From positions 1-52,934 of the forward strand of contig CACYPS010000021.1 in assembly GCA_902776305.1 (NCBI GenBank): DNA of 52,934 bases, read 5' to 3'. Below, piece after piece: positions 1,363 to 35,925 of this stretch. How positions within the stretch are numbered: position 1 is the first letter of the stretch; every line of letters starts with the position of its first letter. The position numbers and the translations under genes are program-made. The DNA comes from an uncultured Lachnospiraceae bacterium (GTDB taxonomy: Bacteria; Bacillota; Clostridia; Lachnospirales; Lachnospiraceae). A model generated the notes under the pieces. The model saw only the letters and a program-made list of their open reading frames with translations, was not told the DNA's origin and searched no databases.

Positions 1363-1590
1363 ATGTCGCATCATGGGAAAAAGATGATTGCTCCCGTCGT
1401 TATCACGATTCTGTTCCTGCTGTATCTGCTGGTCTATATCGTGATGCTGGCAAGGGAAGCATCCACGGAACCGTTGGTCATTCTGATGGGAGTCCCGTTG
1501 GTTCTGTTGGGTATCGGAAGCGTAGTCACATTGTTCGGAAGAATTAAAGAGATAAGGAGCGGTGAAGAAGATGATCTTGACAACTACTGA
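1363..1590 (+). CDS. small two-helix membrane protein, 75 aa
   Basis: A short protein with two hydrophobic segments (about residues 10-29 and 38-58), short charged ends and an acidic C terminus. GGGAGG lies 7 bases before the ATG. Its last 20 bases overlap the next gene, consistent with translational coupling. No family recognised; it could act as a membrane anchor or accessory factor for its neighbours, which is inference from context only. Confidence 0.7.
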   Translation: MSHHGKKMIAPVVITILFLLYLLVYIVMLAREASTEPLVILMGVPLVLLGIGSVVTLFGRIKEIRSGEEDDLDNY

Positions 1591-1885
1591 AACAATTACA
1601 GGAAAAGAACTCGAAATGCTTGGTCTGGTCAAAGGAAGCACGATCCAGACCGTAAATGCTGTGCGTGATATTGGCGCAGGCTTGAAGACCCTCGTGGGAG
1701 GAGAGCTTACACGTTATAATGAAATGATGAATGATGCCAGAGCTTTGGCTACAAAGAGGATGGTAGCGGAAGCCGAGGAGATGGGAGCGGATGCAGTTGT
1801 CGCGGTCCGTTACAGTTCGGCTTCCGTTATGCAGAGCGCTGCGGAGGTCATGGCATATGGGACGGCAGTCAGATTCACGACGTGA
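1571..1885 (+). CDS. YbjQ/UPF0145 family protein
   Basis: This 104-residue protein matches the YbjQ (UPF0145, heavy-metal-binding-like) family: it begins MILTTTETITG, has the central GAGLKTLVGGELTRY segment (family pattern: G, aromatic or Lys, then VGG) and the late helix with GADAVVAVRY. Family members form pentameric rings; the biochemical function is not established. I choose the ATG at 1571 (AAGGAG 11 bases upstream) over a GTG at 1562 that is only 2 bases from the same site and would add three residues. It overlaps the preceding small membrane protein gene. Confidence 0.85.
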   Translation: MILTTTETITGKELEMLGLVKGSTIQTVNAVRDIGAGLKTLVGGELTRYNEMMNDARALATKRMVAEAEEMGADAVVAVRYSSASVMQSAAEVMAYGTAVRFTT

Positions 1886-5733: not shown

Positions 5734-8700
5734 TCATCCCTCTGCCGAGGTGCTCGGTCCGCGATATTCCAGGCAGAGCATCGTCAGATCATCGAACTGT
5801 TCTGCAGAGCCGACGAACACGGTGACGGACTCCCGAACATTGCCAAGAACCTCTTTGGGCATAACGCGCGTCTTCGCATTCAGTGCCTCCAGCATACGGT
5901 TCGCCCCGAAGAGCTCATTGTTGCTGTCGGTAGCTTCCGGTACTCCGTCCGTATAGAGGAAGAGCTTGTCACCCGGGTGAAGCTCTATCTTATATTCTTT
6001 GTAGAACATCCCTTCCAGACCGCCCATGACAAATCCGTGTTTGTCTTTCAGCATGGTATATGTATCATCCGCAGAGCGGTAAATCATCGGGTATTCATGT
6101 CCTGCGTTGGCCGCTGTAATTATTCCTGTACTGATTTCGAGCACTCCGACCCAGGCGGTTACGAACATTTCCATGTCGTTGCTGTTACAGAGGCTTTCAT
6201 TTGTCCGGCTAAGGATCTCCCCTGCCGTTATGCCGAGCATCGCGTAACTCTGAACGATCGTTTTCGCTCTCATCATAAAGAGAGATGCGGGAACTCCCTT
6301 GCCGCTGACGTCTGCAATCACTATACCGAGATGATCGTCATCGATCAGATAGAAATCGTAGAAGTCGCCGCCGACTTCTCTGGCCGGTTCCATCGACGCG
6401 TAGATATCGAATTCTTTCCGGTCCGGATAAGCCGGGAACGTGTTGGGCAGCATGCTTTCCTGAATCTGAGTTGCCATCTTCAGCTCCGTAACGAGACGCT
6501 CCCTCTCAGCTTCCGCCTGATGCTTCAGCTCAAGCAGATGCATTCTTCTGGCAACATACATCCTCACTCCTGCTACGACACAGGCGAGCACTAAAAGACC
6601 CATTACTGCATAGAACCACGGATACTCGTAAAAGGCCTTCTCTTTCGTGATCTGTATGGCAAAAGATCTGTTGCCCCTGCCCATGGCATCCATGAGCTTG
6701 ACGGTAAAATAGTATGTTCCGCCGGGGAGATTCGTATAATCGATCGGTACCAGTTCGCTGCGGTTGACTGTGATGCTCTTCTTGTCAAAACCGTTTAGCT
6801 GGTATGATACCAGCGGATTGCTCAGTGAGTAATTATAGACAAAGCTGTAAATTGTCAGCCTGCGTACGTGGGAGGATACCGTAAATTTTCCGCTGTTGTC
6901 CGGATACATCCGTATACCGTCCGCATCTATATAGGGTACCGCTACCTTGAGAGTGTTGACATTTCCGTGCGTATCGTCGATATTGACTTTTCCGACACCC
7001 GTACTGCCTGCCATGTAAAGGTTTCCGTTATCGTCGAGATAGCTGTAAGAATTGGCTGTCGGGATACATGGGAGACCGTTGAAAATACCGTAGTAAACCG
7101 GGTTCAGATTTTTATTGTCCAGCATTTCTTCTGCCGGCGTTACATAAATTCCGTTGCTGCTGAAGACCCAGAGATCGCCGACTTTGTTCTCGTAAATATC
7201 GAAGTTGTTCGAATACGGAAAGTTCGTGATCGTAGTAATTTTATAGTCAGCAGTCATGTAGGCGATTGAATTACTTGTAACGATCCAGAACAGATCTCTG
7301 ATGGGGTCTCTTTTTATGCGCATAATGATTTCCGATGAGAGACCATCTTTGATATTGAGATTCTGCACGCCGTTTTCGGATATGATATACAGGCCGCCGC
7401 CGTCCGTGCCGAGGATTATATCTCCGTTCATCCCTTCGGCTACTGTCAGACTCTCAGCATTTATGACGCCGTCTTTTTCCCCGTAGCTTTTCACTACACG
7501 GTCTCCTTCGATGATACTGACACCGCCTGTGCTGACCACCAAAAGTGAACCGTCCCGTCTCTCACAGACCGTTCTGACGCGGTCGGACAGAAGACCGTCT
7601 TCCTCGGTAAAGACAGTGGCTTTATTTCCGTCATAGCGCAGGAGCCCGATTTTTCTCCAGGAAGAAATCCAGAGATTATTTTGCGAATCACGTATGACGG
7701 AGCGAATTCGACATCCGCCAAGCAGCTCGAATAAATCCGTTGCTTCGATCGGAACTCCGGAAGCAGTCTCTGCCTTTGTCAGCGGAAGTTCTGATAAAGG
7801 ACCTTCGTCATCCAGTACTGTAAGGCCGTTATCTGTTCCTACGAAAAGCATGTCATTGTAAAGACATGTGCTGTTGACAACGGTTGCGGGCAGACCGTAC
7901 CGTTCATAGAGGTTAGAGAACTGATTCGGAGTAATCTTCATAACACCCTGGCGGGTGGATGTGAACCAGAGATTTCCCTCGTAATCCGTCATTGCGTGCC
8001 CGACGGAATTATTCATCGGAACATTGTCCAGCTTATAAAAGTTGCCGTCCCAAACTGTGCCGATTCCGTTTCCGCCGCAGATCCAGAGCTTTCCGTCTAT
8101 TTTTTCAAAGTTTTCCACATACGTGATGGGGGAGATATCATATGTCTCCATATCGCTGAAACCGTTCTTCAGGTTTCCGTAATAAACCTGAGAAGTCTCG
8201 GTACCGAGATATACATAACCGAGATTGTCCGTGTCAGGGAGAATACTCATGACGCCTTTTACGGGAGATGTATCGGAATCGAGATAAGTATCTATCTTCC
8301 CATCCAGTATGGTGAAGATATTTCCGTCTACGTCAATGCCGTAGATGTATCCGTCGTTGCTCTTCCTCAGAGAGCGTATGTATGCGTCATCTACTCTGGG
8401 ATCCCCGAAATTGCGGAGCTCCATGGACGGGTCAATGATCATGAGGCCTTCATTGGTCGCGATATACATGTTTCCTCTGCGGTCTTCCGCGATTGAATAA
8501 ACATAGGAAGATTTCAGGCCTTCGGCTTTTCCCCATTTAAGGAGTTCATCCCGGTACATCATGAAAACACCGCTGTCATTTGTTCCGATCCAGAGACGAT
8601 CTTTGCTGTCCGTGTAAAGGTAGACAACACTTGCGACGCCTGTAGTGGAATCAAGGCGGACAAAAGAATGTCCGTCATATCGTATCAGTCCGCCATAACT

Positions 8701-28707: not shown

Positions 28708-29772
28708 TTAAACAATCCTGCCTCCGCCGAGAACAATGTCCCCATCGTACAGGACAACTGCCTGCCCGGGGGTAATCGCTCTCTGTGGATGCTCAAAAGT
28801 GACATTCACCGTGCCATCGGGCATAGGATATGCAATCGCAGGCTGTTCTTGTTGCCGATACCGTATTTTTGCCTGACACTTCACCTCTGCAGCAGGTGCT
28901 TCGCCGCTGATCCAATTGAAATCCGCCGCAGTTAGCTTGTCCCCGTACAGATCCTTGTCTTCGGCCAGTGTCACTGTATTGTTCCCGGCATCAATCTCTT
29001 TGACATACATTGGTTTTCCAAATGTAATACCAAGCCCTTTCCGTTGACCGATCGTATAGTGAATGCTACCGTTATGGGTTCCCAAAATATTGCCATCTAA
29101 ATCAAGGAATGCGCCGGACGCATAGCATTTGCCGGTATAGCGTTCTAAAAAGCTGCCATAATCACCATCCGGCACAAAACAGATATCCTGACTATCCGGT
29201 TTTGCAGCATTGATAAAGTTATTTTCTTCTGCGAGTTTGCGAACCTGGGATTTTCGCATATTCCCCAAGGGGAACCTGGTGTGAGCCAGCTGTTCCTGCG
29301 TCATGGAATAGAGTACATAGCTCTGATCCTTTGTTTCATCCAGTGCCTTTTTCAGAAAATAGACTCCGTCCTCCTTTTCAACACGAGCATAATGTCCGGT
29401 CACCACGCAATCACATCCAAGAATCCTCGCCCGCTCAAACAGCTTGTCAAATTTCATATAACGGTTGCAGTCAATGCAGGGATTTGGGGTTTTGCCGTGC
29501 TCATATGCCTCAACAAAACGGTTTATGACATTCTCTCGGAATCCTTCTTTGAAATTGAATACATAATACGGCATGCCGATTGCATATGCGACACTTCTGG
29601 CATCTTCCACATCATCAAGGCTGCAGCATGTATGCTGGCGGCTGATCCCGATGTCCTCGTTGTCATACAGCTTCATCGTGCAGCCAATGCAATCATACCC
29701 GGCGTCTTTCATCAGTTTTGCGGCAAGAGAGGAGTCAACTCCGCCGCTCATGGCAATCAATGCTTTTTTCAT
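28708..29772 (-). CDS. mnmA: tRNA-specific 2-thiouridylase
   Basis: A 354-residue enzyme placing sulfur at C2 of wobble uridine 34 in tRNA Lys, Glu and Gln. The PP-loop SGGVDSS binds ATP. Catalytic cysteines C99 (in NPCIDCN) and C198 (in SQDICFVPDG) are both present, as is the TIGQRKGLGI segment. It is the last gene of the minus-strand operon that imports sulfur amino acids. In this pathway cysteine supplies the sulfur through a desulfurase, which is not encoded nearby. Its base composition looks more A/T-rich than the flanking genes, as in the rest of the island. The 93-base gap upstream holds a 19-codon open stretch ending in TAG that may be a gene remnant. Confidence 0.93.
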   Translation of the reverse strand: MKKALIAMSGGVDSSLAAKLMKDAGYDCIGCTMKLYDNEDIGISRQHTCCSLDDVEDARSVAYAIGMPYYVFNFKEGFRENVINRFVEAYEHGKTPNPCIDCNRYMKFDKLFERARILGCDCVVTGHYARVEKEDGVYFLKKALDETKDQSYVLYSMTQEQLAHTRFPLGNMRKSQVRKLAEENNFINAAKPDSQDICFVPDGDYGSFLERYTGKCYASGAFLDLDGNILGTHNGSIHYTIGQRKGLGITFGKPMYVKEIDAGNNTVTLAEDKDLYGDKLTAADFNWISGEAPAAEVKCQAKIRYRQQEQPAIAYPMPDGTVNVTFEHPQRAITPGQAVVLYDGDIVLGGGRIV

Positions 29773-29865: not shown

Positions 29866-30606
29866 TTAGTATTCAAAGGATTTCAAAAACTGTCTTGCCC
29901 GCTCTGTCTGAGGACGTTCAAAAAAGGCTTTGGGAGCATGACTTTCTTCCACTATTTCGCCATGTTCAAAAAACAGCACCCGGTCAGCAATCGCTTTTGC
30001 GAAGGCCATCTCATGGGTGACGATCAGCATGGTACTACCGCTTTTGGCAAGATCAAGCACGACCTGCAAAACCTCATGAACCATCTCCGGATCAAGCGCT
30101 GCCGTAATTTCATCCAGAAGAAGCACTTCCGGATGCATAATAAGCGCCCTCACGATCGCAATTCTCTGCTTCTGTCCGCCGGATAGCTGCCTTGGATAAT
30201 CATTCTTTCGGTCTGCCAGCCCGACTCTTTCCAGAAGCTCCATTGCCTCCGCTTCAACCTCTGCGCGCTTTCTTTTCTGAACCTTTACCGGTGCCAGAAG
30301 AATATTTTCCAAAACCGTTTTGTGCGGAAACAGGTCATAACTCTGGAAAACCATTCCGATTTTTTGCCTCATGGATGAGATATCTTTTGCATTCTTCTGA
30401 AGCAGCTTGCCACCCAGATAGATTTCTCCACCCTGAATATCCTCTAATCCATTAAGACAGCGGAGAAGTGTACTCTTGCCACATCCGGATGGACCGATAA
30501 TAACGATCACTTCGCCTTTATTTAATTTAAGGTTAATACCTTTCAGAATAGTATTCCGATCAAACTCCTTGTGAAGGTTTTTGATCGATAGAAGGGAATT
30601 CTCCAT
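29866..30606 (-). CDS. polar amino acid ABC transporter ATPase
   Basis: A 246-residue ATPase with Walker A GPSGCGKST, signature LSGGQKQRIAIVRAL, Walker B VLLLDEITAALDP and switch His in IVTHEM. The nearest families are GlnQ/TcyC-type ATPases that energise polar amino acid or cystine uptake. The ATG at 30606 is chosen (AGAGG 8 bases upstream, TAATG overlap with the permease stop); a GTG at 30615 would add three residues. It probably drives the permease pair 30606-31920. Confidence 0.92.
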   Translation of the reverse strand: MENSLLSIKNLHKEFDRNTILKGINLKLNKGEVIVIIGPSGCGKSTLLRCLNGLEDIQGGEIYLGGKLLQKNAKDISSMRQKIGMVFQSYDLFPHKTVLENILLAPVKVQKRKRAEVEAEAMELLERVGLADRKNDYPRQLSGGQKQRIAIVRALIMHPEVLLLDEITAALDPEMVHEVLQVVLDLAKSGSTMLIVTHEMAFAKAIADRVLFFEHGEIVEESHAPKAFFERPQTERARQFLKSFEY

Positions 30607-31280
30607 TACGACCACCTCTTTTCCAAATAAACAGACAACTTACTGATAGGCCAGCAGATCAGAAAATAGAGCAGGAATACGACAGCAAAGATACCAAATG
30701 CCGCATTCGGCGAGCTTCTTCGATTTGCCTCAATAATCTGTTGCGCAACCTTCAATACTTCTACAATGCCGATCATCATAACAAGACTGGTCGTCTTGAT
30801 CATTCTCGTAATCAGATTGATGGATAAGGGTATCAGTCTGCGTATCGTCTGGGGAAGGATCACATGATAATAGATCTGTTTTCCATCCATTCCCAATGCC
30901 ATAGCACTTTCATATTGAATCTTGGGAATGCTGATCAACGCACCTCGCACCAGATCCCCCATCTCAGCAATGCCCCAGAAACTGAATACAAGAATCGCAG
31001 ATACTTCCGCTTCCAGATTCCAGCCAAATACCCTGGTCGTTCCAAAATAGACAATAAACAAAAGAACCATCTGCGGCATAATTCGTACAATTTCCAGATA
31101 AATACGGAAGATAACTTTCAAAATACGATTCTTCGATGTCATGAGAGCGCCAACAACCAAACCAAGAACAATGCTGATAATGACGGAAATCAGGCTGATT
31201 CGAACGGCTACCCACAGGCCGGAAAGTAATCTTACAAAATTTGTTCCCTTGAAGAGAACATCAATCCCCAAATTCTGCAT
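30606..31280 (-). CDS. polar amino acid ABC transporter permease (second)
   Basis: A 224-residue HisM-type permease: GLWVAVRISLISVIISIVLG at the start, the EAA loop ALGMDGKQIYYHVILPQTIRRLIP, and about five helices. AAAGGAG is 8 bases before the ATG. The start overlaps the end of the first permease by 20 bases. The two probably form a heterodimer with the ATPase downstream. Confidence 0.92.
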   Translation of the reverse strand: MQNLGIDVLFKGTNFVRLLSGLWVAVRISLISVIISIVLGLVVGALMTSKNRILKVIFRIYLEIVRIMPQMVLLFIVYFGTTRVFGWNLEAEVSAILVFSFWGIAEMGDLVRGALISIPKIQYESAMALGMDGKQIYYHVILPQTIRRLIPLSINLITRMIKTTSLVMMIGIVEVLKVAQQIIEANRRSSPNAAFGIFAVVFLLYFLICWPISKLSVYLEKRWS

Positions 31281-31920
31281 GGCGAAGTCTCCTTTCCAGC
31301 AGGTCTCCGAGAACGGATACTGGCAAAAGCATAATCAGATAAAAGATGACCAGAAGCACCAGGCATTCAATTGTCTTGGCATACATCCCGATAAGGTCTT
31401 TAGCAGTAAACATCAGATCCATAAGACTGATCGTAGAAAACACACTCGTTTCTTTTAATAGAAAAATGACATTTGCAACCAGGCCCGGAATGCTGGATGC
31501 GACCGCCTGAGGGAGAATCACATAACGAAACATTTGACTGCGACTCATACCTAAGCTCTCTGCGCTTTCAAACTGAATCTTTGGGATGTTATCCAGTCCA
31601 CTCCGAAAAGTCTCTGTCATATATGCTCCTCCCAACAGTCCTAATCCCCATGTGCCGCAGACTTCAGGAGAGACGCATATTCCGATTTTCGGTAATGCGA
31701 AGTAAATGAAAAATAGTTGAACCAGAAGAGGCGTGTTGCGAAATAACTGCGTATAGGCAGACACAATATATCTGGCAATCGGAATTTCAAAATGTATGAT
31801 TGCAGATCCAATCAGGCCAATCAAAACAGCAATTGCAACGCCTTTCCATCCCACCCGCATGGTTAAAAACAGTGCATCTCTATATAAAGGGAGATAAGAA
31901 ATCATCACATCCAGATTCAA
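31261..31920 (-). CDS. polar amino acid ABC transporter permease (first)
   Basis: A 219-residue HisQ/HisM-type permease starting at TTG with CGGAGG 9 bases upstream. The EAA loop SLGMSRSQMFRYVILPQAVASSIPG is clear, with LFRNTPLLVQLFFIYFALP before it. The partner is the permease at 30606. The 17 bases to metI upstream keep it in the same operon. Confidence 0.92.
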   Translation of the reverse strand: MNLDVMISYLPLYRDALFLTMRVGWKGVAIAVLIGLIGSAIIHFEIPIARYIVSAYTQLFRNTPLLVQLFFIYFALPKIGICVSPEVCGTWGLGLLGGAYMTETFRSGLDNIPKIQFESAESLGMSRSQMFRYVILPQAVASSIPGLVANVIFLLKETSVFSTISLMDLMFTAKDLIGMYAKTIECLVLLVIFYLIMLLPVSVLGDLLERRLRHAEFGD

Positions 31921-31937
31921 GATTCCACACCTCCGTA

Positions 31938-32603
31938 TTATTCATTATTTCTGTGATCCATTCTTTTTGCCAGAAGGGTTCCGACAACTTGCATGAGCTG
32001 GACAATGGCGACAATAAATACCAATGTTACAAGCATGACCGGCGTGTCATAACGGTAGTAGCCATAGCGGATTGCGATATCACCGAGCCCACCACCGCCA
32101 ACTACGCCTGCCATGGCAGAATATCCAAGTACTGTTCCAAGTACAATCGTTACTCCCACAAGCAGAGAGGTTCGGGCCTCTCCAATCAAAACTTTGAAAA
32201 CGATTGTTTTTGTCTTAGCTCCCATGCTGACAGCAGCTTCAATAACACCCCTGTTTACTTCTTTCAGAGATGACTCAACCATGCGTCCGATGAGAGGTGC
32301 AGCTGCCAGTGTAAGAGGAACGATGGTCGCTGTTGATCCGTAACTTTTTCCTACAAGCAGTTTTGTCAAGGGCATTACTACGATCAGCAGGATTAAGAAA
32401 GGTACGCTTCTTGTAATGTTGATGATCATATCAAGTGTCCTGTATATGGTTCGGTTTTGACGAAGTCCGTTTTTATCCGTGAGCGTCAGGGCAATTCCAA
32501 GAGGAAGGCCGAGTATATAGCCGAAGAGGGTAGAAACAACCGTCATATACACGGTGTCGCGGATTCCTTCCAGCATCATGACGGTCATCGTACTATCCCA
32601 CAT
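31938..32603 (-). CDS. metI: methionine ABC transporter permease
   Basis: A 221-residue permease of the MetI type: GIRDTVYMTVVSTLFGYILGLPLG, TRSVPFLILLIVVMPLT, the EAA-like loop SMGAKTKTIVFKVLIGEARTSLL and GYSAMAGVVGGGGLGDIAIRYGYYRY, all typical of MetI. The ATG at 32603 is chosen because GGAGG is 9 bases upstream; the ATG at 32612 abuts that site. It overlaps the end of metN by 11 bases. Confidence 0.94.
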   Translation of the reverse strand: MWDSTMTVMMLEGIRDTVYMTVVSTLFGYILGLPLGIALTLTDKNGLRQNRTIYRTLDMIINITRSVPFLILLIVVMPLTKLLVGKSYGSTATIVPLTLAAAPLIGRMVESSLKEVNRGVIEAAVSMGAKTKTIVFKVLIGEARTSLLVGVTIVLGTVLGYSAMAGVVGGGGLGDIAIRYGYYRYDTPVMLVTLVFIVAIVQLMQVVGTLLAKRMDHRNNE

Positions 32604-33366
32604 ATGTCTCATCCTCCTCTTCTTCTAATAGCAGCAAACGTTTGGCAGCCCTGGATTTCGGATTTACAAATAGTTCGGAGACGGTACCAATTTCCTGCAC
32701 CTCGCCGTTTTCCAGTACCGCGACGCTGGAACAGATTTCCTGAATTACTTTCATTTCATGAGTAATGATTACTACTGTGATCCCCATCGTATCATGAATC
32801 GTCTTTATCAGTCCCAGGATCGTTTTCGTCGTTTCCGGATCCAGCGCGCTTGTTGCTTCATCGCAGAGCAGAATATCCGGTTCGTTTGCCAGGACTCTTG
32901 CAATGGCAACACGCTGCTTTTGTCCGCCAGAAAGCTGAGACGGATAAGCTTCTGCCTTTTCCGCAAGGCCTACCTTTTCCAGCAGTCCCATGGCTTTTTC
33001 TCTGCGTTCTTTTCTCGGAATACCTCGAATTTCCAGAGGAAAACACACATTGTTTAACACGGTTTGCTGCTCCAGCAGATTAAAATGCTGGAAGATCATT
33101 CCAATTTTCTGCCTCCGAAGACGGAGTTCTTCGCTGCCAAGATTCAAAAGGTTTTCTCTATTAATGATGATTTCCCCGGTATCTGGTCGCTCCAACAAGT
33201 TGATACATCGTACCAAGGTGCTTTTTCCGGCTCCGGACAATCCAATCACTCCGAAAATCTCATTCTGCGGAAGAGAAAGAGATACGTTTTTCAGCGCTTC
33301 GACAGTACCGTTTTTGGCTGAATAATGCTTGGATATTGCATTCAGCGTAATGTAATTATCATTCAT
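32593..33366 (-). CDS. metN: methionine ABC transporter ATPase, lacking the regulatory NIL domain
   Basis: A 257-residue ATPase with Walker A GLSGAGKSTLVRC, signature LSGGQKQRVAIARVL, Walker B ILLCDEATSALDP and the MetN-like stretch INLLERPDTGEI. Standard MetN is about 340 residues because a C-terminal NIL (ACT-like) domain binds methionine and inhibits transport. Here the protein stops soon after NGEVQEIGTVSELF, so that feedback domain is absent. It is followed by metI and preceded by the fused binding protein. Confidence 0.92.
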   Translation of the reverse strand: MNDNYITLNAISKHYSAKNGTVEALKNVSLSLPQNEIFGVIGLSGAGKSTLVRCINLLERPDTGEIIINRENLLNLGSEELRLRRQKIGMIFQHFNLLEQQTVLNNVCFPLEIRGIPRKERREKAMGLLEKVGLAEKAEAYPSQLSGGQKQRVAIARVLANEPDILLCDEATSALDPETTKTILGLIKTIHDTMGITVVIITHEMKVIQEICSSVAVLENGEVQEIGTVSELFVNPKSRAAKRLLLLEEEEDETYVG

Positions 33367-33437: not shown

Positions 33438-33467
33438 TTAATCCTCAAACGGAACAGTCACGCCATC
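33438..33467 (-). repeat. remnant duplicate of the binding-protein C terminus
   Basis: Read on the minus strand these 30 bases encode DGVTVPFED and a stop, nearly identical to the true end DGAVVPFED of the gene whose stop is at 33467-33469. They abut it directly. It looks like the scar of recombination between two paralogous metQ-type genes. Confidence 0.7.
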
Positions 33468-35110
33468 TAATCCTCAAATGGAACAACCGCGCCATCATAG
33501 GTATCAATAATGTACTGTTTGATTTCCTGAGATTTTAATACTTCAGCCAGTGCCAGAATTCCTTCATTATTTTCATTGCCTGCTTTCACAACAAGCACAT
33601 TGACATAGGTCTGTGCCGCAACGGAATCGCTGGTTTCATAGGCAACAGCATCATGTGCTACGGAGAAGCCTGCTTCAAGGGCATAATTGCCATTCAAAAC
33701 AATAAATGCGACCTCATCTTTTACGCGGGATACCTGTGCAGCTTCAAGCTCCTGGATCTTAATATTATGAGGATTCTCCTCGATGTCCTTCACGGTGGCC
33801 AACAGACCGGCGCCGTCCTTCAGCTTGATGATACCGTTATCCTGCAGGAGAAGAAGTGCTCTTGCTTCGTTTGTTGTATCGTTTGGTACTGCAATCACAT
33901 CGCCGTCACTCAACGCTGCAAGATCGGCTTTGGTGCCCGGATAGATACCGAAGGGCTCATAATGAATGCCTGCGACAGATACAAGAGAAGTGCCGTTCTC
34001 TTCGTTAAAATTGTCGAGATAAGGAACATGCTGGAAGTAGTTTGCATCAATATCGCCGCCCTCAACGACAAGATTCGGCTGAACATAATCTTCAAATTCG
34101 GTTACTTCAAGTGTCCAGCCCTGCCCGGCAAGAATTTTTGCTGCCTGAGCCAGAATCTCTGCATGGGGAGTGGGAGATGCTGCTACTGTAATGGTGCCTT
34201 TGCTTTCAGTAACAACGGTCTGCGCAGTATTTGCAACAACGCCGCCTTCTACAACGAGAGTATCTTCATAGTCCTTGCCATAGGTGTCCAGGAGGGTTGC
34301 TTCATAATCGGCATGGAAGAAGGCCTCACTGCCGAGTGCAACGATCTCAGCATTCAACCAGTTCAGAAGGGTTTCGTTGCCCTTGGTAACTGCTGCTGCA
34401 ATGGTATCTGCACTGCCCAGAGAAGGAATTCCCACGGTGTAGCCGGGATTTTCAATGGCGAATGCGATGACTTCGGTATTATCATTGGCCCATGCAATGC
34501 CGTTTCCGTTTTCAAATGCAGTTTTTGCCTCCGCATATGCGTCATATTTCTGCAACTTGATATTCGGATAATTCTTTTCCAGATAAGTTTCAGCCGTTGT
34601 ACCGGAAATCACGATCACTTCATCATCAGCTCCGATCTCATCAAGGCTGGTAATGACTGCACTGTCAGGGGAAACAACACCCAGAGCAACATTCATATAC
34701 GGAAGTGCGAAGTCAACTTCCTGTGCGCGTTCTTCTGTGACGGTGAAGTTTGCGAGAATGATATCCACCTTTCCGGTCTGGAGATACTCAATGCGGTTAG
34801 CGGCCTCAGTTGAAACATAATTAATCTTTACGCCAAGATCTTCGCCGATGCGATTACCAAAGTAGACATCATAGCCCTGATATTCACCTTTCTCATCTAC
34901 ATAGCCGAAAGGGCTCTTATCGGAGAATACGCCAATGTTGATAGTGCCGCTTTCTTTGATTTCATCTACGGTTCTGTATACGACAGAATCAATACTATTA
35001 GGAGCCTGAGTATCCTGCGCTGCATTTTTTGCACCGCAGCCGGTAAGAGAAGTGATTGCAAGGGTCAATCCAAGGAGCGCCGCTCCGATTTTTTTGAATG
35101 TATATTTCAT
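33467..35110 (-). CDS. fused two-domain ABC solute-binding lipoprotein (SBP_bac_3 + MetQ)
   Basis: A 547-residue lipoprotein with signal peptide and lipobox LTGC (Cys25). Residues about 55-280 are an SBP_bac_3 polar-amino-acid/cystine binding domain (GTINIGVFSDKSPFGYVDE, GKVDIILANFTVTEERAQEVDFALPY). A short linker (281-304) leads to a complete MetQ/NlpA methionine-binding domain (305-547; ITVAASPTPHAEIL, NLVVEGGDIDANYFQHVPYL). Each part alone matches the normal length of its family, so this is a true fusion and not a truncation. The operon encodes exactly the two matching membrane machines: MetNI, and the permease pair with its ATPase. One lipid-anchored protein may therefore serve both importers. 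Confidence 0.93.
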   Translation of the reverse strand: MKYTFKKIGAALLGLTLAITSLTGCGAKNAAQDTQAPNSIDSVVYRTVDEIKESGTINIGVFSDKSPFGYVDEKGEYQGYDVYFGNRIGEDLGVKINYVSTEAANRIEYLQTGKVDIILANFTVTEERAQEVDFALPYMNVALGVVSPDSAVITSLDEIGADDEVIVISGTTAETYLEKNYPNIKLQKYDAYAEAKTAFENGNGIAWANDNTEVIAFAIENPGYTVGIPSLGSADTIAAAVTKGNETLLNWLNAEIVALGSEAFFHADYEATLLDTYGKDYEDTLVVEGGVVANTAQTVVTESKGTITVAASPTPHAEILAQAAKILAGQGWTLEVTEFEDYVQPNLVVEGGDIDANYFQHVPYLDNFNEENGTSLVSVAGIHYEPFGIYPGTKADLAALSDGDVIAVPNDTTNEARALLLLQDNGIIKLKDGAGLLATVKDIEENPHNIKIQELEAAQVSRVKDEVAFIVLNGNYALEAGFSVAHDAVAYETSDSVAAQTYVNVLVVKAGNENNEGILALAEVLKSQEIKQYIIDTYDGAVVPFED

Positions 35111-35174: not shown

Positions 35175-35207
35175 AAAAAAACCGGGACTTCTTCATAAGC
35201 TCCCGGG
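35175..35207 (-). terminator. leader terminator of the sulfur operon (attenuator)
   Basis: On the minus strand, CCGGGA (35206-35201) pairs with TCCCGG (35187-35182), extended inside by CTT/AAG, followed by seven T. It lies 65 bases before the binding-protein start. Its 5' arm CCCGGGAG (35207-35200) is the exact complement of CTCCCGGG at 35306-35299, which would form a competing anti-terminator. Confidence 0.8.
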
Positions 35208-35239
35208 CAACTGGCATTATAGCATTTCATTCTGAAATG

Positions 35240-35362
35240 TCATACATCGGTGCAGCGACAACACAAAGCAGACGAATGCACCTGGCCACACTGATATGCC
35301 CGGGAGAACAACATTCGACTACAACACATGATGGATTCATAAGAATTGTTAGATCTATACAT
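35240..35362 (-). CDS. cysteine-rich leader peptide (candidate)
   Basis: A 40-codon frame with GGAAAGGAG 9 bases before its ATG. Six of 40 residues are cysteine (13, 14, 25, 34, 35, 37), including Cys-Cys at 13-14 and CCRC near the end. The segment CTCCCGGG that can pair with the terminator arm starts 15 bases after the first Cys-Cys. A frame offset by one, starting at 35367 (46 codons, cysteines 3, 14, 19, 20, 30, 35), also exists, but its ATG is only 4 bases from the AGGAG. Both are cysteine-rich. Ribosome stalling at Cys codons when cysteinyl-tRNA is scarce is the proposed signal. Confidence 0.55.
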   Translation of the reverse strand: MYRSNNSYESIMCCSRMLFSRAYQCGQVHSSALCCRCTDV

Positions 35363-35408
35363 TGCATTCCTCTCCTTTCCTGATTGGTTGCTCAAATTCG
35401 ATGATGTT

Positions 35409-35437
35409 ACTATATACCTATTTCCCTACTTAATCAA
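35409..35437 (-). promoter_or_regulatory. promoter of the sulfur operon
   Basis: On the minus strand TTGATT (35437-35432), 17 bases, TATAGT (35414-35409). The inverted repeat at 35417-35441 covers the -35 and the spacer. Confidence 0.75.
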
Positions 35438-35517: not shown

Positions 35518-35925
35518 ATGATCTCAACCAAAGGAAGATATGCAATTCGATTTATGATAGATCTAGCTGAACAGTAGGAAGGAGTCCCGGTTCCACTTGA
35601 AGGCATCGCTTTACGACAGGAAATATCCAGAAAGTTTCTGGAAACTGTTGTTAATCTTCTCGTAAGGGCAAAGCTGGTGAAAGGGGCCAGCGGAAAAGGC
35701 GGTGGATATCGGCTGCTGCGTAAACCTTCAGAATATACAATTGGAGAAATACTGAAGATTACAGAAGACACATTAGCAACAGTCGCTTGCCTGGATGAAG
35801 ATGCGGATATCTGTCCGAGAGGAAAGGTTTGCAAAACCTTACCCATGTGGAAAAAATATGATTCGATGGTTCACGACTTCTTTTATCACATCACCATTGA
35901 AGATCTTGTAAATGGAAATATATAG
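35518..35925 (+). pseudogene. Rrf2-family regulator interrupted by an in-frame TAG
   Basis: The ATG at 35518 follows CAGGAGG. The frame reads MISTKGRYAIRFMIDLAEQ, then TAG (35575-35577), and continues in the same frame to 35925 as a complete Rrf2 protein (about 135 codons): ISRKFLETVVNLLVRAKLVKGASGKGGGYRLL and a three-cysteine cluster VACLDEDADICPRGKVC, as in Fe-S or thiol-sensing members (IscR, CymR). Only one base change separates it from an intact gene (CAG-TAG-GAA). It is probably inactive, or made only by readthrough or by reinitiation at an internal start that lacks the HTH. It neighbours the sulfur operon it presumably controlled. Confidence 0.88.

Follow-up and report, generated by a model that had tools for sequence, protein, structure and literature searches.

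The question raised by this locus was whether a short cysteine-rich reading frame, lying ahead of an intrinsic terminator and a run of transport genes, controls transcription into those genes. The window, a stretch of 52,934 nucleotides from an uncultured Lachnospiraceae bacterium, carries the element on its minus strand; an interrupted Rrf2-family gene flanks it on one side and the transport operon on the other. The element is read here as a cysteine-responsive, ribosome-mediated transcription attenuator belonging to a family widespread in Clostridia, with a probability of roughly 0.88.

On the minus strand, the promoter (35437-35409) consists of a -35 element TTGATT (35437-35432), a 17-base spacer and a -10 element TATAGT (35414-35409), and a promoter-like pattern was present in 51 of 74 relatives. 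The Shine-Dalgarno sequence AAGGAGAGG stands ahead of an ATG at 35362, from which a leader peptide gene of 40 codons plus TGA is read (35362-35240, stop 35242-35240); MYRSNNSYESIMCCSRMLFSRAYQCGQVHSSALCCRCTDV stands between this ATG and the stop. The peptide contains six cysteines (positions 13, 14, 25, 34, 35 and 37), and the regulatory Cys-Cys codons 13-14 (TGTTGT, 35326-35321) occupy positions -3 and -2 before the nearly invariant hexamer CGAATG (35317-35312), the probable 5' strand of a hairpin termed P1, with CATTCG (35278-35273). These are followed by the 5' strand of the antiterminator, or region 2 (CTCCCGGGCA, 35306-35297, read in frame as (x)-Ser-Arg-Ala), its inner 5' strand TGGC (35288-35285), hairpin P2 (35282-35249, GGTGCA at 35282-35277 with TGCACC at 35254-35249), region 3 (GCCA(GT)TGCCCGGGAG, 35215-35200, the first T of TGCCCGGGAG being 35209), and the intrinsic terminator (about 35209-35175), in which CCCGGGA pairs with TCCCGG (35187-35182) ahead of seven T (35181-35175). 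A first-pass annotation, made from the window sequence alone, had described the promoter, the ribosome site with its six-cysteine frame of 40 codons, and the terminator arms with seven T, and all were found where it had placed them. It had also proposed two mutually exclusive folds, which agrees with the region 3 strand being common to antiterminator and terminator; the 8-base complement on which this was based is a real pairing, drawn too short, as CTCCCGGGCA pairs with TGCCCGGGAG (35209-35200) at 10/10 bases and TGGC pairs in addition with GCCA (35215-35212).

Relatives were collected by several searches. A DNA search of 61 genomes returned elements within the same genus; the leaders of L002 and L003 were clearly similar along their entire length, the first relatives retained both the 35362 frame and the motif MC(C)xRMxxSRA, and in L003 and L009 the element preceded an O-acetylhomoserine sulfhydrylase-like gene, not a transporter. 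Weak DNA matches (L005-L008 and L010) were rejected as chance. A pattern made of the spacer and the antiterminator strand matched in 18 of 392 genomes of the order, 15 of which were counted as genuine since L023, L027 and L028 were judged to be chance matches and rejected, and the reversed control pattern gave 0 matches in the genomes listed. Covariance-model searches gave matches in at least 14 of 42 genomes of the genus, at least 13 of 391 of the class and at least 5 of 398 of the phylum, these prevalences being lower bounds with up to 63 candidates per genome scored in the genus and up to 6 in the class and phylum. Three of the five phylum-level matches (L185-L187) lie outside the class, and their leaders carry the Cys-Arg-Met motif.

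The main sample came from a peptide-agnostic pairing scan of the genome collection, in which CTCCCGGGCA and TGCCCGGGAG were required 66-96 bases apart, with no peptide, and no spacing to a peptide, imposed. At least 118 loci were obtained and all 118 were examined; the main counts refer to these, counts with n = 72, 74, 76, 77 or 80 were drawn from the first 80, and the conclusions were the same for both sets. Orientation was set by the terminator alone. In the orientation so defined, 103 of 118 loci had CGAATG at a distance of 11 bases 5' of the pairing, against 0 of 118 in the opposite one. Elements of this kind accounted for 109 of the 118 loci listed. Nine loci (L083, L088, L108, L134, L147, L149, L155, L176 and L183; among their sources Treponema, two Pseudomonas, Bacteroidetes, Methanomicrobiales, Acidobacteria, Halanaerobiaceae and Neomarinimicrobiota) were rejected as being without a leader and without a convincing terminator, none having Cys at -1 or -2; since a missing leader was part of the grounds for rejection, counts out of 118 are given as well. 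As far as their sources are named, the 109 elements come from Clostridia-group bacteria, many of them ruminant-derived and few cultured, the cultured carriers being Clostridium porci (L148), Lachnospiraceae AC2029 (L113) and AB2028 (L118), and Ruminococcaceae KHP2. The elements are not copies of each other; 78 clusters remain at 65% identity, and 77 of the 78 have Cys at -1 or -2.

The frame had at first been left open, an overlapping frame from 35367 also being cysteine-rich. Over the stretch from 30 bases before CGAATG to 12 bases into the antiterminator strand, a stop was found in the frame from 35362 in 0 of 109 relatives, and in the other two frames in 60 and 47 of 109. The frame is thereby settled as that from 35362, and the 35367 frame was rejected as the true leader since only the former is stop-free in relatives. 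A Shine-Dalgarno sequence of at least 4 bases was present in 101 of the 105 elements having an ATG. Judged from its sequence, the leader is short and putatively translated, with a ribosome site and codons of the regulated amino acid.

Comparison of these codons across relatives, a check that the first-pass annotation had proposed, showed that 108 of 109 elements (108 of the 118 loci listed) have an in-frame Cys at -1 or -2 relative to the CGAATG position and that the remaining one, L164, has it at -3, giving Cys at -1 to -3 in 109 of 109. Cys stood at -1 in 96 of 109 elements (96 of the 118 loci listed) and at both -1 and -2 in 73 of 109, against a background of 20 in 1199 codons elsewhere in the leaders. 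The hexamer was exact in 103 of 109, and the spacer from its start to the antiterminator strand was fixed at 11 bases. Conservation of the motif extends beyond Cys, with Arg in 103 of 109 elements, Met (ATG at +1) in 109 of 109 and Ser-Arg-Ala in 80 of 80 loci counted, as could be expected of an arrest peptide, in which the nascent ..CCRMxxSRA.. would stall the ribosome in response to cysteine, homocysteine or a similar small molecule, independently of codon supply. However, Ser-Arg-Ala is dictated by the RNA pairing on which the search was based, 6 of 109 elements have Leu, Gln or Lys in place of Arg, the residues in between vary freely, and Cys lies at footprint distance upstream of region 2, as codon sensing predicts; peptide arrest was judged very unlikely. 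Two further features of the leaders were recorded. The last codon is Cys in 40 of 109 elements, and Arg-Cys-stop occurs in 24 of 76, without an obvious role. Inspection of a candidate pairing gave CGATG near the leader end in 37 of 76 elements, mostly within the leader frame and read there as Arg-Cys, and CATC in the 5' region in 29 of 76.

Conservation of the pairing was assessed in two alignments. Alignment of 22 elements using MAFFT gave a nested antiterminator (10 + 5 pairs) with the inner hairpin P2, in which double changes were seen in 10 of 21 pairs against 4.5 in shuffled alignments (0 of 500 shuffles as high), and 91% of cells paired in register against 32-49% when the partners were slid by 1-3 columns. 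A second alignment, fitted to the structure, held 103 rows from 100 loci (76 pairing-scan elements and 24 earlier ones) because L094, L135 and L143 each gave a second match; here double changes were seen in 16 of 21 pairs against 8.9 shuffled, and in 85 cells against 20.6 shuffled, with 0 of 500 shuffles as high in either case. Both the antiterminator, including compensatory changes at its inner TGGC strand, and the helices of P2 therefore covary, and the conservation of pairing in relatives that had been put forward as a further check was observed. For P1, whose hexamer is almost invariant and thus leaves little room for covariation, none was found (338 of 500 shuffles reached as high a value). 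Full 7-base complementarity for P1 was present in 45 of 109 elements against 4.8 (at most 10) in shuffles, the complement occurs in more than one reading frame, and the 5' part of P2 (RCRU) can alternatively pair with AUGY of CGAAUGY, which is P1. On this complementarity, hairpin P1 probably forms.

The position of a stalled ribosome was considered using the established toeprint distance, some 15 bases counted from the P-site codon. Under a shortage of charged tRNA-Cys, the ribosome would halt with its A site on one of the Cys codons of MCC(x)RM; if this is the last of them, the toeprint distance would place the front edge just 5' of CTCCCGGGCA; in the window, where the last such codon is at -2, a few more bases would be left. 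CTCCCGGGCA could then pair with TGCCCGGGAG, the antiterminator being reinforced by the inner TGGC:GCCA helix and by P2, and once it had formed, the terminator could not form and the sulfur genes would be transcribed. When cysteine is plentiful, the ribosome would cross CTCCCGGGCA, reach the stop and cover the 3' arm of P2, after which CGAATG could pair with CATTCG as P1 and the terminator would form. From the arrangement of these parts we infer the stall, the sense of the response and the P1 step.

Folding of the switch was predicted for the RNA ahead of the ribosome only, using 110 sequences (the 109 elements and the window). With the ribosome edge placed at the first base of region 2, 104 of 110 sequences were predicted to form the antiterminator. 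Moving the edge 3 bases on reduced this to 51 of 110, and at +6 it fell to 1 of 110, with 106 of 110 then favouring the terminator. Ahead-only folding of 77 sequences gave the same picture, with a value of 0.99 for the window when the edge was at the start of region 2. In these predicted folds a stalled ribosome leaves the antiterminator strand free and an advanced one does not, and the original proposal that a stall at Cys13-14 would permit read-through fits both the spacing and the ahead-only predictions. Full-length equilibrium folding, on which no conclusion is based, separates the states weakly, the predicted antiterminator exceeding 0.5 in 52 of 77 sequences when stalled, 40 of 77 at the stop and 46 of 77 without a ribosome; for the stalled window, where RNA upstream of the ribosome may pair, the predicted values were 0.16 for the antiterminator and 0.69 for the terminator.

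Counted from the beginning of region 2, the leader stop comes a median of 64 bases later (range 22-76), and 14-84 bases (median 31) separate it from region 3. In 76 elements its median distance beyond the 3' end of the best stem at the place of P2 was 12 bases (5th-95th percentile -13.5 to 20). Classical trp geometry, with a ribosome at the stop masking the antiterminator strand, was not found among these elements, since the stop is too far past region 2 for a terminating ribosome to mask it as in trp; from its position, a ribosome there would tend to open P2, leaving region 3 free.

Met codons flank the Cys run and are not needed by a pure Cys sensor. A Met codon stands immediately ahead of the run in 74 of 109 elements against a background of 22 in 654 codons, and the O-acetylhomoserine sulfhydrylase and MetQ-type genes found downstream serve methionine too, so a dual sensor was weighed, in which Met and Cys codons are both read and shortage of either gives read-through. 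Met is, however, absent from codons -5 to -1 in 14 of 109 elements, Cys being absent from -3 to -1 in none; a stall at the invariant +1 ATG would already mask part of region 2, and the P1 pairing explains that ATG better. Sensing of both amino acids is considered unlikely, and the leader is read as sensing cysteine.

The regulated genes of the window lie on the minus strand. The first encodes a solute-binding lipoprotein of 547 aa in which SBP_bac_3 and NlpA (MetQ-like) domains are fused (33467-35110; both Pfam cut-offs met, NCBIfam cut-offs not met). It is followed by a MetN-like ATPase and a MetI-like permease (31938-33366; the best NCBIfam models miss their cut-offs narrowly or by a wide margin), two amino-acid-type ABC permeases with a TcyN-like ATPase (29866-31920; best models below cut-off, substrate putative), and mnmA, a tRNA 2-thiouridine synthase gene (28708-29772; cut-off met), which is the last gene of the run and is putatively co-transcribed. 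Since the best NCBIfam models, mnmA aside, fall below their cut-offs, the transport substrates are predicted ones. The SBP_bac_3-NlpA/MetQ-like fusion heads genes for two ABC transporters of different type.

Across the 109 elements, the first downstream gene could be read in 104, and 99 of these were of sulfur amino-acid type by similarity: 63 O-acetylhomoserine sulfhydrylase-like, 16 NlpA-like, 8 NlpA-SBP_bac_3 fusions, 6 SBP_bac_3 and 6 permeases like those of the window, with 5 falling into none of these classes. Classes were set by similarity to proteins of the window and to one protein of L078 that scores above the NCBIfam cut-off for O-acetylhomoserine sulfhydrylase, and Pfam results on 72 loci agree. 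The five loci outside these classes had a glutamate-cysteine-ligase-like gene below cut-off (L126), a putative MetN-like ATPase (L178), and, further on, putative cysteine-synthase-like or rhodanese-like frames (L099, L141 and L146), the last two cases read from sequence; frames at covariance-search loci were taken by us to be cystathionine-lyase/cysteine synthase pairs, a MetN and a sulfate-binding protein. Judged by similarity, the common denominator of the downstream genes is cysteine and its precursors. The first-pass annotation had read the locus as leader-peptide attenuation ahead of a sulfur-amino-acid operon; the downstream genes bear out the second part, and together with the conserved Cys codons and the covarying pairing they support the first.

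A probable Rrf2/CymR-type operator (35442-35424, minus strand) overlaps the -35 element of the window. It differs at 5 positions from the family consensus ACCTATTGACATAGTAGGT, which lies upstream of the leader as an interrupted palindrome with the -35 element inside it. Within 4 mismatches, ACCTATTGACATAGTAGGT was found in 87 of 107 elements against 0 of 107 shuffled controls. Rrf2-family genes are divergent beside the element in the window, L003 and L186. The window gene (35518-35925, plus strand) is interrupted at codon 20 by an in-frame stop, which reflects either decay of the repressor or a variant of the assembly; in L003 (1069-1476) and L186 (354-761) an intact relative accompanies a leader of this type. 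The L186 protein meets the Rrf2 superfamily cut-off (128.9 vs 73.3), and the NCBIfam Cys_reg_CymR cut-off of 195 bits was not reached by L186 (88.5) or by the 82-residue window fragment (26.9). It is likely, on the conserved palindrome, that an Rrf2-type operator is stacked on the attenuator, so that a repressor of this family would bind there and share control with the leader. Control by an Rrf2/CymR-like repressor alone, with a passive leader and a terminator that is constitutive and leaky, would account for the conserved operator over the -35 element and for the three divergent genes, but it leaves the conserved frame, the Cys codons, the fixed spacing and the covarying antiterminator unexplained, and the window Rrf2 frame is itself interrupted; it was regarded as highly improbable.

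Known systems were compared with the attenuator reading. T-box and SAM-type elements often control sulfur genes in Firmicutes, which would favour a known riboswitch here. An Rfam search of the window at the gathering score gave no match at the element, with only a tRNA elsewhere; 16 loci gave no Rfam match, and at relaxed E-values the only match was to a snoRNA (18.9 bits vs a cut-off of 50). As far as Rfam models reach, a T-box, SAM or other known riboswitch is refuted, and its chance is practically nil. Two candidate leader peptides had no NCBIfam family match at an E-value of 0.01.

The trp, his, leu and ilv leaders are ribosome-mediated attenuators of amino-acid operons. The present element resembles them in a short, putatively translated leader that repeats codons of the regulated amino acid in tandem, in its exclusive antiterminator and terminator, and in the position of the terminator before the first gene. 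It differs in that the antiterminator strand lies inside the leader frame, read as Ser-Arg-Ala, in that the stop, at its median distance past the start of region 2, would open P2, and in that an Rrf2-type operator overlaps the promoter. The element was not found described in the literature searched, which included few subscription papers and no preprints, and was missing one relevant catalogue.

The uORFC-8-2 description reports 145 examples of a motif found exclusively before cysS in Rhodobacterales (Alphaproteobacteria), with Cys codons inside the first stem and ribosome-mediated attenuation proposed (PMC8632094). That motif shares a uORF with tandem Cys codons at about 14-15 and a terminator (PMC8632094), whereas the present elements belong to Clostridia, the two being set apart by this description; cysS was not read as the first gene at any of the 104 loci. 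Cys leader peptides of Actinobacteria are reported to have no conserved terminator hairpin and to carry Cys runs near the stop codon (PMC1262725), and mycobacterial polycysteine short ORFs are leaderless by the title of their report (Canestrari 2020). Like the present element, both place Cys codons in a short frame upstream of cysteine genes, with a cysteine response observed or proposed (PMC1262725; Canestrari 2020); as described there, they differ from it in that here a Shine-Dalgarno sequence, an intrinsic terminator and an antiterminator are present. The CymR regulon of Firmicutes is reported to be governed by an Rrf2-family regulator with cysteine-metabolism targets (PMC2869319); on that basis it is alike in its targets and in the Rrf2-family gene beside the leader in three loci, and unlike in that an attenuator is added here downstream of the promoter and the CymR cut-off is not reached.

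The mechanism is of a known kind; within the reach of the searches, the novelty lies in the family, in the antiterminator strand embedded in the leader frame and in the stacking of the operator. A wider interpretation is held tentatively, as possible at well below even odds: an undescribed, old, regulon-wide Clostridia element in which two cysteine-status sensors are stacked, an Rrf2-type operator acting on initiation and a leader reading Cys, and perhaps Met through the Met codons before the run, with one-codon precision, while a P1/P2 relay sharing RCRU would let the ribosome, at the Cys codons or at the stop, set termination. Amino-acid genes of Firmicutes are usually discussed as T-box- and riboswitch-controlled, and a cysteine attenuator before many sulfur operons of gut and rumen Clostridia would, if the attenuator reading is true, be a regulon-scale exception. 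The signature MCCRMxxSRA plus the pairing could then be used to find cysteine-controlled genes in uncultured bacteria, and the model predicts that the switch is decided over a distance of one or two codons.

In the genome of the window itself, a second copy (G000:C74, about 6449-6629; L030 and L046) reads MMCCRMLYSQA... and precedes a sulfate-binding-protein-like frame that several stops interrupt; the antiterminator of this copy contains a single mismatch, there is no clear ribosome site, and the operator consensus was not found here (best 7 mismatches). Back-to-back covariance-model matches were obtained in L143 (940-1101, minus strand, and 1567-1737, plus strand; about 470 bases apart) and in L135 (5904-6065, minus strand, and 6437-6607, plus strand; about 370 bases apart), as if one intergenic region held two divergent leaders.
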